Positions 13,246-32,543 of a stretch of 32,907 bases of DNA are shown here, piece after piece. The position numbers were made by a program, and so were the translations under genes. The notes below the pieces were generated by a model. It searched no databases. It worked only from the letters and a program-made list of their open reading frames with translations, and had not been told where the DNA came from. Numbering within the stretch: the first letter of the stretch is position 1; each line of letters begins with the position of its first letter. The DNA is from a virus: the IMG/VR virus record IMGVR_UViG_3300047463_000209, positions 1 to 32,907 of that record; one strand, written 5' to 3'.

Positions 13246-13320
13246 TGGAGCGGGTAGGGGGAATCGAACCCCTCGTCTTCTGCTTGGAAGGCAGAAGCTC
13301 TACCATTGAGCTATACCCGC
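13246..13320 (-). tRNA. tRNA-Gly (anticodon UCC), CCA encoded
   Basis: The acceptor stem GCGGGTA/TACCCGC is perfect. The D arm is GCTCAATGGTAGAGC, the anticodon stem CTTCTGC/GCAGAAG frames the loop CTTCCAA (anticodon TCC), and the T arm GGGG TTCGATT CCCC is standard. The discriminator U and CCA follow in the DNA. The variable loop is short, as in tRNA-Gly. Its likely job is to read GGA codons in phage mRNA. A minus-strand promoter inside the neighbouring HNH gene (13466-13474) is well placed to express it. Confidence 0.95.
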
Positions 13321-22345: not shown

Positions 22346-22353
22346 TATTTATA
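22346..22353 (-). promoter_or_regulatory. T4-type late promoter (exact TATAAATA)
   Basis: Minus-strand TATAAATA, an exact match to the T4 late element, 30 bp before the ATG at 22315. The predicted start is about 22340, giving a leader with AGGAG. Confidence 0.75.
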
Positions 22354-25110: not shown

Positions 25111-25118
25111 TATTTATA
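25111..25118 (-). promoter_or_regulatory. T4-type late promoter (exact TATAAATA)
   Basis: Minus-strand TATAAATA, 19 bp before the ATG at 25091, with GGAGCGAGA as the ribosome binding site. It lies at the 3' end of the upstream gene. Confidence 0.7.
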
Positions 25119-29364: not shown

Positions 29365-30771
29365 TTAGAAAAGTTTGCCGAAGGGACCAAAACTTGGACC
29401 CTTCTTCATTGATATGAAGGTTAAATCTGTCATGAAGGCGTCTAGCTTATCTTGTGTTAGTTTAGTTAACTCATGAATAAAAGTCAACTGCATCAGCTTA
29501 GAGTTAGCCACGTGTGGTTGAGATAACAGTATAGAGTTAATATTATTAACAAACTCAGAGGAGTTCTGTACGCCGACATCTACTCCCTTATTCTTAACGC
29601 CGTTAAAGATGTTGACGAATTTGGCAGACTGACTATTAAACTGCTGCACGGTTTTTGGATAACTGTTGTGGTTGTTATCAAAAGATAAGCCATACTGCTT
29701 TAGTAAGCTTACTACCATGTCTACTGGCGCCTTGCCTAATCTTGCAGCCGCCGCGCCTGAAGCAGTAGACTCCCACTTTAAGTTTGAGTAAGAAGACGTG
29801 TTGTTACCCTGAATCTGAAACTTTATAGTTCCATAATTGTTTCCGTTGAGAGTAATTTTAGAGTCTTGAGTTCTAAATTTATTAGAACCTAAGCCAAGAT
29901 CTATCTTCTTATTAGTAACTTTAAACTTATAGCCATCACCGGACTCAAACATCACGTCGTCGGTGTTAACCTCTTCATATCTAGCCTTGCTCCCAGATAT
30001 CTTCTTAAGAGATATTCCAACTACACGACGCTGCTTAAACAACGTTCTGAGCAGCGCGTTTAGCTCGTTGATCGACTTTGACTCGCCGGTTCTGTTTATT
30101 AAACTGTCTATCTCGCTTTTTACTTTATTCTCATTCTGCACGAGCCATATGTCGGCTGGGTTCCAGGTATCTTTCTGAGATATTCCATACTTATTGTTGG
30201 CCACATCCGTGATATATTTCATGAACCCACCCTCGCGGGAGAACTCAGTAAACTTGGAGTCAGAGAACTCCTCAAGCATCTTCTCCTGCTGGAGGAAGAA
30301 AGACTTCAGCCATTCCTCATCATCATCGATCTCCGGATATATCTGTAGCAATTCTTGATACTTGTCATCAAGCTTTATGTCTAGATACGTGTTGTATTTC
30401 TTGTTATCTTGGAGAGCGCGTCTCATTATCCAAGCAGAAGCGAGCTCTTGCTTGCGAGTAGCCTGAGCGTCGGTCGTGGCGCCGCCGGCTTTTTTACGAG
30501 ATTTTTTGAATTGAATTTTATAGTCGAAGATTCCTATGTTGTATTTCTCACCGTCTTCGCGCCCGGCAATACTTTTCTTTATAAAGTCAAAGTTATCTTC
30601 ATTACACTTGATCTGCCATTGCGCCGTCTTATTCCTAGACCACAGGGAGTCGGCAAAAAATCCTTCTTTGGGGCTTGGTATTCTCTCAAGAAGCTTCTTT
30701 AGCCCTGCTCTAAGATCAGACGGGGCGTGTTCAAGCGTCTTATCGCGGTCTAGTGAGAAACTGGTAGCCAT
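29365..30771 (-). CDS. Possible PD-(D/E)XK-type nuclease, late gene
   Basis: A 468-residue protein with no familiar name. Motifs in order: RKQELASAW (E109), DTWNPADIWLV (D207) and VVGISLKKI (254-256, S-L-K in place of the usual D/E-x-K). The NPADIW plus SLK pair is what I associate with PD-(D/E)XK nuclease-like phage proteins. The second half is basic with FKVTNKKIDLGLG strands, and the end reads FISMKKGPSFGPFGKLF. It is the first gene of the late block, after an AATAAATA promoter. If correct it may act on DNA, but a virion role is also possible. Confidence 0.45.
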   Translation of the reverse strand: MATSFSLDRDKTLEHAPSDLRAGLKKLLERIPSPKEGFFADSLWSRNKTAQWQIKCNEDNFDFIKKSIAGREDGEKYNIGIFDYKIQFKKSRKKAGGATTDAQATRKQELASAWIMRRALQDNKKYNTYLDIKLDDKYQELLQIYPEIDDDEEWLKSFFLQQEKMLEEFSDSKFTEFSREGGFMKYITDVANNKYGISQKDTWNPADIWLVQNENKVKSEIDSLINRTGESKSINELNALLRTLFKQRRVVGISLKKISGSKARYEEVNTDDVMFESGDGYKFKVTNKKIDLGLGSNKFRTQDSKITLNGNNYGTIKFQIQGNNTSSYSNLKWESTASGAAAARLGKAPVDMVVSLLKQYGLSFDNNHNSYPKTVQQFNSQSAKFVNIFNGVKNKGVDVGVQNSSEFVNNINSILLSQPHVANSKLMQLTFIHELTKLTQDKLDAFMTDLTFISMKKGPSFGPFGKLF

Positions 30772-30791: not shown

Positions 30792-30799
30792 TATTTATT
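30792..30799 (-). promoter_or_regulatory. Putative late promoter (AATAAATA)
   Basis: Minus-strand AATAAATA, one base from the late consensus, 20 bp before the ATG at 30771 and just after the terminator at 30816-30842, so it can start the late block. Confidence 0.5.
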
Positions 30800-30815: not shown

Positions 30816-30842
30816 AAAAAGGGGAGGTCTTAGGACCTCCCC
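30816..30842 (-). terminator. Strong Rho-independent terminator
   Basis: Minus strand: GGGGAGGTC, loop CTAA, GACCTCCCC (30842-30821), a 9-bp perfect stem, followed directly by TTTTT. It ends transcripts from gene 41 and from the late promoter at 30961. Confidence 0.9.
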
Positions 30843-30955
30843 CAATGAATAAAGCAGACTGGGCCGGGCGGAACCCCACCGTGATTCCCGGCTCTTCCTT
30901 GCTGATGTAGATACTCTGTGCCTCTTGCGCTGCAGCGCAATACCAGTCCGTCAGT
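30843..30955 (-). ncRNA. Candidate late-expressed structured small RNA
   Basis: About 113 nt between a late promoter and a terminator, with no reading frame of note. The fold is a three-way junction: closing stem GACTGG/CCAGTC (857-862 with 943-948 of kb 30), helix GCCGGG/CCCGGC (863-868 with 887-892) extended by CGG/CCG around a 7-nt loop, and hairpin TTGCGC-TGCA-GCGCAA (925-940). The closing stem and second helix abut and could stack. A 32-nt purine-rich single strand joins them. It does not fold as tRNA and matches no RNA family I know. Confidence 0.6.
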
Positions 30956-30960
30956 GGGTT

Positions 30961-30968
30961 TATTTATA
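30961..30968 (-). promoter_or_regulatory. T4-type late promoter (exact TATAAATA) before the structured RNA
   Basis: Minus-strand TATAAATA overlaps the stop codon of the small gene at 30964. No start codon with a usable gene follows before the terminator. The predicted +1 is the A at 30955, so the transcript would be about 140 nt long. Confidence 0.65.
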
Positions 30969-31152
30969 CGACGAAATCATCGTGGATGAAAAAATTAGGC
31001 GTCCAGCCGTTGAATCCCGCACCGCGGTTTAGCCTCTCCAGATAGGTCTCTACCACCTTCTCGCGGTCGCTGGCCATTATAATACGGTCGGTTGGTATCT
31101 CCCTGATGCAGAAGATACCCTCGTCGCTTAGGTCTATCACGTCGTATTTCAC
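30964..31152 (-). CDS. Small conserved protein coupled to gene 41
   Basis: A 62-residue protein, MKYDVIDLSDEGIFCIREIPTDRIIMAS..., ending in NRGAGFNGWTPNFFIHDDFVV. The GxGFxGWTPxFF ending occurs in small proteins of T4-like phages. It starts with GTG at 31152, overlapping the gp41 stop as GTGA. Function unknown; a helper of the helicase is a guess from coupling. Confidence 0.7.
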   Translation of the reverse strand: MKYDVIDLSDEGIFCIREIPTDRIIMASDREKVVETYLERLNRGAGFNGWTPNFFIHDDFVV

Positions 31153-32543
31153 TTGAACTCCATAAACATCTTCTTGTCAAACTTACCACCGGTGCGGTTC
31201 TTGTCTTCCTGACCAAACTTGGTGTTGTCCATAACCGGACCGTCCAGCAGGTTCTCCTGGGCGTCCTGCTCTACATCATAGAAACGCATCTTTCGACGAT
31301 CCACCCCAAGCATAAACCTGCGGTTAGACCCAACGTCAGAATAGCGATTCTTGAGCTGCTTAACCAGGACTTGATTGAGTGACTCAAACTCTTCGGTCGA
31401 GATGATTGCAAACATAAAATCAGCTGTGGCCGGGAGTCCAAAGGATTCTGATGTATCTTCCAGTCCCAAGTCGCTGCTCGTATATCCGCCTCGAGTTGTT
31501 TGAGTCGCAGAGACGACAGGTACATCGAACTCCACGGCAAGGCCTCGAAGCTCTTCTGCGATTGCCTTGATATAGGTATAAGAATTGACGTTGGCTCCAT
31601 GCTTAATCCTCGCCGATGCGCAGATGTTTAGATAGTCGATGTAGATAACATCGGGGATGAAGTTCTTCTTTATCTTCAGCTCCTCGATTAGGTGCCTGAA
31701 GTTACTCGACGAGGCGCACGCCGTCGGATACTCCTTGATGATCAAACGACCCTTTGTCTTAGACTTAAGGCGCTCGATCTTAGCCTCGTACGACTCCTTT
31801 GGTATCATCTCGATCTCGTCTAGAGATATGTCCAGGAGGTTAGCGTCTATTCGCTCGGCGATTCTCTCCTCGGCCATCTCGAGGGTGATGTACAGAACGC
31901 TCCTGCCCTCGGACAGGTTGTGAGCTGCTGCGTGGCACATGAACATCGACTTGCCCACGCCGGTACCGGCCAGCACGATGTTCAGAGTCTTTCTAGACAG
32001 ACCGCCCTTGGTGATCGTGTTGAACAGCGCGAGATCGAACGGTATCTTTTCCTCCTTGCGGCGATAGAACTCAAACCGCGACTCGGAGTCTAGCAGGAAG
32101 TCGTGACCGATGCTCGTGTCGAAGTTAACAGCCAAAGCGTCTGACAGCAGCTTAGGGATCGATCCCTTGGCCAGCTTACCGGTCTTGTCGTCGAGGATGT
32201 GGATCGACGTCATGATGGCGTTGTAGATCGCCTTGTCCTGGCAGAACTTCTCAGTCTGATCGACTAGCCACTGGAAGTCGCTGTCATCGAGATCCATCTT
32301 CTCGACGAACTCGGTGCACTGCTTGAAGTTCTCCTCACCCAAGTTCTGTCGCGACGAGAGCTCAACGGCTAGAGCCTCGCGCGACGGGAACTTATTATAC
32401 TTCTTAGAGTATGTGTCGATGAGCTCAAATATAGTCTTATCGACGCGGTCATGGAAGTACTCAGACTTGATGAATGGTATGACTTTCCTAGCGAACTCCT
32501 CGTTGAGCGCGAGGTTCGTTAGAATTACCTTTTCTAAGATCAT
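31149..32543 (-). CDS. 41: Replicative DNA helicase (T4 gp41-like, DnaB family)
   Basis: A 464-residue protein of gp41 length. An N-terminal helical domain (1-150) is followed by a RecA-type core: Walker A GTGVGKS (193-199), TLEMAEERIAERIDAN, Walker B DVIYIDYLNI (D303) and SATQTTRGGYTSSDLGLEDTSESFGLP, the DnaB H4-like region. It unwinds DNA 5'-3' at the fork and works with primase gp61. It follows uvsX by 5 bp, as in T4 apart from gene 40, which is absent. Confidence 0.96.
   Translation of the reverse strand: MILEKVILTNLALNEEFARKVIPFIKSEYFHDRVDKTIFELIDTYSKKYNKFPSREALAVELSSRQNLGEENFKQCTEFVEKMDLDDSDFQWLVDQTEKFCQDKAIYNAIMTSIHILDDKTGKLAKGSIPKLLSDALAVNFDTSIGHDFLLDSESRFEFYRRKEEKIPFDLALFNTITKGGLSRKTLNIVLAGTGVGKSMFMCHAAAHNLSEGRSVLYITLEMAEERIAERIDANLLDISLDEIEMIPKESYEAKIERLKSKTKGRLIIKEYPTACASSSNFRHLIEELKIKKNFIPDVIYIDYLNICASARIKHGANVNSYTYIKAIAEELRGLAVEFDVPVVSATQTTRGGYTSSDLGLEDTSESFGLPATADFMFAIISTEEFESLNQVLVKQLKNRYSDVGSNRRFMLGVDRRKMRFYDVEQDAQENLLDGPVMDNTKFGQEDKNRTGGKFDKKMFMEFK

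Follow-up and report, generated by a model that had tools for sequence, protein, structure and literature searches.

Uncultured T4-like phages carry a genuine, previously undescribed family of structured late-type RNAs, of which more than 90 distinct copies were found downstream of gp41. The copy studied here is located on the minus strand at positions 30816 to 30968 of a T4-like phage fragment of 32,907 nucleotides (the window, meaning the whole stretch of DNA that was analysed) and comprises a late promoter, a folded RNA, and an intrinsic terminator. It very probably exists as a functional structured RNA, and the comparison of sequences among relatives makes it highly probable that the family consists of functional, separately transcribed non-coding RNAs. 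Judging from the promoter sequence, the RNA is likely to be made, and to be made late. T4-like phages are among the best-studied viruses, yet a large uncultured branch of them keeps a compact RNA that is absent from the catalogues searched. The invariant core suggests a conserved partner, and identifying what the RNA binds could reveal a new use of RNA in late infection. With the covariance model, metatranscriptomes can be searched for the family at once.

The RNA unit and its neighbourhood in the window

The window contains, in this order, uvsX, gp41, orf62, the RNA unit, a gene for a 468-residue protein, and a block encoding kinase-like and virion proteins. The parts of the unit and the adjacent genes are the following.

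31149-32543, minus strand: gp41, DnaB-like helicase, the upstream anchor gene
30964-31152, minus strand: orf62, small protein gene of 62 codons, relatives of which immediately precede the RNA in most loci
30961-30968, minus strand: T4-type late promoter, exact match to the element TATAAATA
30816-30955, minus strand: predicted late non-coding RNA, about 140 nt including the terminator (promoter and terminator, family conservation)
30855-30950, minus strand: conserved structured core of about 95 nt, matching covariance model R1 end to end with 81.8 bits (the window copy is itself among the 55 sequences used to build R1)
30943-30950, minus strand: 5' strand of P1, CGGACTGG, pairing with 30862-30855 (two-sided changes at all 8 pairs)
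30925-30940, minus strand: P2 hairpin TTGCGC-TGCA-GCGCAA (two-sided changes at five pairs, 93% of cells paired)
30919-30924, minus strand: near-invariant junction segment GAGGCA (GGC unchanged in all 55 aligned sequences)
30895-30898, minus strand: invariant GGAA just 5' of P4, GGAAUAG in most relatives (alignment of 55)
30887-30892, minus strand: 5' strand of P4, GCCGGG, pairing with 30868-30863 (100% of cells paired, two-sided changes at four pairs)
30869-30881, minus strand: P4b hairpin CGG-UGGGGUU-CCG (paired in 100% of cells, with 16 changes of pair on the gp41 tree)
30872-30878, minus strand: 7-nt loop of P4b, UGGGGUU, invariant in the 55-sequence alignment A2
30863-30868, minus strand: 3' strand of P4, CCCGGC (covariation, gp41 tree)
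30855-30862, minus strand: 3' strand of P1, CCAGTCTG, following P4 with zero gap (covariation)
30816-30842, minus strand: intrinsic terminator, 9-bp stem plus a G-U pair, loop CUAA, TTTTT
30792-30799, minus strand: second late-type promoter, AATAAATA, predicted from its sequence to serve the next gene, 20 bp before it
29365-30771, minus strand: 468-residue protein gene behind the RNA unit, phrog_1462 (no assigned function)

The exact TATAAATA (30968-30961, minus strand) and the 9-bp stem with five Ts (30842-30816) were found as stated in a preliminary description of this DNA, and the unit does sit between the replication genes (uvsX, gp41, and orf62) and the next gene. The same description had held that no gene lies between promoter and terminator. 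The unit is indeed separate, but TATAAATA overlaps the stop codon of orf62, a real gene with many relatives, indicating that the RNA unit abuts a gene. By analogy with T4, the 5' start of the RNA is expected near position 30955.

The window holds three copies of TATAAATA for 0.63 expected, a mildly unusual number that was equalled in 1 of 100 shuffled sequences. The two other exact copies (22346-22353 and 25111-25118, minus strand) are each located 20 to 31 bp ahead of a gene start, as would be expected for ordinary late promoters. The sole tRNA gene of the window encodes tRNA-Gly (anticodon UCC; 13246-13320, minus strand).

Comparative evidence for the fold

Folding energy of a single sequence was rejected as proof of structure. 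With the terminator, the window element gave a z score of -1.92, and 12 of 200 shuffled sequences were as good; once the terminator was removed, the score (-0.11) was not significant and no better than that of shuffled sequence. Across the family, the mean z score of the core was only about -1. Since energy is weak evidence, significance rests on the comparison among relatives.

Relatives identified through gp41 in viral contigs contained a similar sequence in the same place. P4 reads GUCGGG/CCCGAC in the closest of them, versus GCCGGG/CCCGGC in the window. We aligned 55 diverse copies without fitting them to the covariance model and added the structure by hand. In this alignment, 90.0% of the cells were paired, versus 75.5% in shuffled and 37 to 46% in slid controls, and two-sided changes numbered 207, versus 62 after shuffling. 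A search with the covariance model recovered 91 copies at E ≤ 0.01. For these 91 sequences and 22 pairs, the corresponding values were 96.3% versus 73.5% (shuffled) and 32 to 47% (slid), with 478 versus 130 two-sided changes, in an alignment that was fitted to the covariance model and leans towards it.

Relatedness of the copies was controlled for by placing pair identities on the gp41 tree (changes counted by parsimony on a quickly built tree of 62 copies). P4 switched between Watson-Crick pairs about 38 times in total (6, 11, 8, and 13 times for the individual pairs) and had 0 broken cells across all copies. The tree gave 16 pair changes for P4b, 13 of them at the outer pair, 51 for P1, with 6 to 8 at each of seven of its eight pairs, and 90 for P2 (8 to 22 per pair). 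In most relatives, P3 forms a hairpin at a constant offset, with a mean of 3.8 pairs versus 2.83 upon swapping of the arms, the best of 500 swaps reaching 3.22 pairs. By the shuffled and slid controls and by the counts on the gp41 tree, the helices are retained via compensatory changes beyond what relatedness accounts for. The element is not coding, since the length differences in P2 and P3 do not preserve a reading frame and the sequence of P1 is variable.

As read from this covariation, the family fold is one of P1, P2, P3, and P4 round a single junction, with P4 abutting P1. P1 closes the structure, P2 and, in the majority of relatives, P3 are formed, P4 and P4b adjoin P1 without a gap, and the core composed of GAGGCA, GGAAUAG, and UGGGGUU is nearly invariant. 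In the window copy, the P1 core helix GACUGG/CCAGUC (30862-30857 with 30948-30943) and P4 abut on the 3' side, and both are present in the minimum-energy fold. P2 is palindromic in this copy and varies in sequence and length among relatives. The preliminary description had proposed a three-way junction with two abutting helices and a palindromic hairpin. Both helices and the hairpin are real, but the family fold is a four-way junction; P3 is lost or weakened in the window copy and its nearest kin. The covariance search over related phages that had been suggested as a check found the RNA there, and the very two helices that had been named show compensatory changes. A GGAA-UUCC pseudoknot was considered and rejected, both strands being nearly invariant and thus providing no support apart from P4b. 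P4b was favoured, as covariation is seen at its outer pair.

Occurrence of the family and likeness to known RNAs

The relatives all come from metagenomic contigs. At least 120 stretches with the RNA were found in viral contigs by a pattern scan, in addition to 13 stretches of a second subtype, which has the loop UGGUGGUU. This subtype (loci L015, L018, L021, and L041 plus the 13 stretches) has a different linker between P2 and P4 and occupies one branch of the gp41 tree. In a diverged copy (L056, 5662-5769), the internal loop of P4 is longer by about nine nucleotides and the GGAAUAG segment is altered. Among 84,980 genomes of prokaryote species, the scan gave two matches, neither with the helices; a bacterial origin was rejected, both matches lacking P1 and P4. 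Model R1 found no convincing copy in 16 records of cultured T4-like phages, including T4, KVP40, pf16, phiM12, Cr30, S-PM2, P-SSM2, P-SSM7, DLP_6, Melnitz, and others, and the matches of the RNA to cultured phages in blastn were all due to chance or resembled terminators. In the gp41 tree, most of one large uncultured branch consists of carriers, and a neighbouring lineage (L065, L066, L074, and L077) and the cyanophages have no convincing copy. Thus, the T4 life style does not require the RNA, since no convincing copy was found in the sister gp41 lineage or the 16 cultured phages.

Rfam 15 contained no family matching the window or 19 relatives at the curated gathering thresholds. Permissive scans (the window, L050, L036, and L015) gave only weak matches, which scored far below threshold and mostly covered the terminator. 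We found no description of such an RNA in open-access papers. The claim that the unit encodes a structured non-coding RNA, about 140 nt long and new to T4-like phages, is therefore borne out by covariation, by the kept layout of the unit (see below), and by absence from Rfam.

The packaging RNA of phi29 is also a small phage RNA with a closing helix and a multi-way junction, and is known from phi29-like podoviruses. The RNA described here resembles it in these two elements and has no Rfam match. RNA is not known to take part in T4-type packaging, and the packaging-linked role that had been suggested was not supported, no link to packaging being found.

Structured RNAs of T4-like cyanophages, namely, manA, wcaG, PhotoRC-II, and glnA, have been discovered by covariation (PMC2864571, PMC9964418). 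Most are cis-regulatory and precede metabolic or photosynthesis genes, whereas the RNA described here forms an independent unit; all four are in Rfam and none matches it. CfrI, an antisense RNA of about 225 nt at psbA of cyanophage S-PM2, is summarized in PMC12197685 (citing Millard 2010). CfrI is likewise an intergenic non-coding RNA of a T4-like phage, but the RNA reported here differs from it in its location behind gp41, in having no antisense partner gene, and in its compact conserved fold. Model R1 did not match S-PM2. GOLLD and ROOL are likewise conserved standalone RNAs with no assigned function, found partly on phages (PMC12286853). They are several times larger than the RNA described here, have another fold, and form RNA-only oligomers.

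Possible partners of the RNA and its predicted transcription in relatives

Late machinery of the gp55, gp33, and gp45 type would start transcription at TATAAATA once DNA replication has begun, and the terminator would end it, also separating the RNA unit from the next gene. Variable helices surround an invariant junction and loop, indicating that the fold presents a fixed surface. We tentatively suggest that some conserved protein or large machine, such as a phage protein, the ribosome, RNA polymerase, or a nuclease, recognizes and binds this surface. The RNA would then act late, in trans, and as part of an RNA-protein complex. A bolder version, which we consider unlikely in its full form, is that of a new class of late phage ribonucleoprotein in which the RNA, perhaps with the orf62 protein, binds and redirects a universal host machine in virion production. 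Candidates for that machine would be the ribosome, RNA polymerase, a tRNA- or RNA-decay enzyme, or a defence complex.

Conservation of an exposed loop and a Rho-independent terminator with a U tail, as in many bacterial small RNAs, might instead indicate a base-pairing RNA that engages phage or host mRNAs late in infection through UGGGGUU or single-stranded GGAAUAG. Complements of GGAAUAG were somewhat frequent nearby (59 versus 33), with 4 of 60 controls equally high. However, 764 kb of neighbouring phage DNA showed no enrichment of complements of the loop (17 AACCCCA for 34 expected), GGAACCCCACC sites numbered 0 in the same DNA, and conservation covers the whole fold rather than a seed. Pairing of this kind is thus improbable, though it retains some merit. 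The antisense or sponge role proposed in the preliminary description fared no better, there being no clear enrichment of invariant-loop complements in neighbouring genes, and its proposal of a late regulator of gp41 or uvsX was not supported by any sign of control.

The obvious candidate for a protein partner is the product of orf62. In 136 of 159 loci, a relative of orf62 immediately precedes the RNA, and the gap between them stays short while the distance to gp41 ranges over 2 kb. The family consists of phage proteins of 60 to 80 residues with a C-terminal GGGFDGWTPxFF motif and conserved residues E18, N42, G44, F47, P52, and F54; relatives match phrog_29065, which has no assigned function. 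The predicted fold is beta-beta-beta-alpha (pLDDT 82). Adjacency and the conserved residues would suit an RNA-protein module, possibly a toxin-antitoxin or anti-defence system, as a special case of the ribonucleoprotein explanation favoured above. However, orf62 relatives also occur in the sister lineage that has no RNA, the predicted fold had no significant match in the PDB, and neither orf62 nor its relatives matched an RNA-binding or nuclease family. The adjacency may also merely reflect a fixed operon end. Type III toxin-antitoxin systems have RNA repeats beside a toxin nuclease gene, whereas the RNA unit is single-copy and no nuclease match was found. We regard a dedicated pair of orf62 protein and RNA as rather improbable. 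No similarity was found that would make orf62 a relative of Dmd, and tblastn of orf62 relatives against cultured phages gave only a weak match in an Ochrobactrum phage. T4, too, has a gene for 60 residues behind gp41.

The four helices follow one another in cloverleaf order and P4 abuts P1, raising the question of a tRNA-like decoy or tRNA-derived RNA in which P1 would be the acceptor arm, UA positions 8 and 9, and P4 the T arm. The two-nucleotide linker starting with U and the zero-nucleotide junction between P4 and P1 agree with this reading, as does the best match of R1 among cultured T4-like phages, the tRNA-Leu of KVP40 (21.9 bits, E = 0.004), although a single match of this E value among 16 genomes may be due to chance. 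Unlike a tRNA, the RNA has no CCA after P1 and no T loop, P4 ending in an internal loop and UGGGGUU, and the linker between P2 and P3 is long (about 10 nt). Neither ARAGORN nor the Rfam tRNA model (cmscan) gave a call. A tRNA-like nature is therefore decidedly improbable. The KVP40 tRNA-Leu (L222 1501-1575, corresponding to KVP40 173862-173936) shares AGAGGCA-GAG and the junction of acceptor and T arms with the RNA; this match may reflect chance or a distant tRNA origin, the two being indistinguishable.

The layout of the unit was compared among 91 distinct type I copies. The late-promoter core TAAATA was present upstream in 91 of 91, with the exact TATAAATA in 56, against a background of 3.3% of random 70-nt stretches for TAAATA and 1.4% of 110-nt stretches for TATAAATA. 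A terminator stem of at least 6 bp preceded the T run in 88 copies, and a second TAAATA core was located 3' of the terminator in 86 (exact TATAAATA in 68). The self-contained unit of the preliminary description is thus maintained in relatives, in the order promoter, RNA, terminator, and second promoter. The RNA was located 193 to 2427 nt downstream of gp41 on the same strand in 157 loci, some of which share contigs. Two further matches, in cultured phages, lie upstream of gp41 and were rejected as chance hits.

The sequence of promoter, structured domain, terminator, and gene is the usual order of an attenuator, and a cis-acting leader (riboswitch or attenuator) would sense something and control the terminator before the next gene. 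However, a second late-type promoter follows the terminator in nearly all copies, and no downstream gene is conserved, the next gene belonging to 19 unrelated families in 91 loci. Promoter, terminator, place, and varied next gene favour an independent late RNA over a leader, which is very unlikely. The element might also be the mere 3' end of the replication operon, its stems and terminator serving to protect the gp41 transcript or to end it, with TATAAATA being incidental. Its location right behind that operon and the ability of stems near a 3' end to stabilize mRNA agree with this reading. It is hardly credible, however, since such a role has no need of invariant loops and junctions and the late-promoter core is present in every copy.

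The slot behind the RNA unit (29365-30771 in the window) is filled by unrelated genes in relatives, and this replacement of the next gene suggests a hotspot for insertions where the replication genes meet the late genes.
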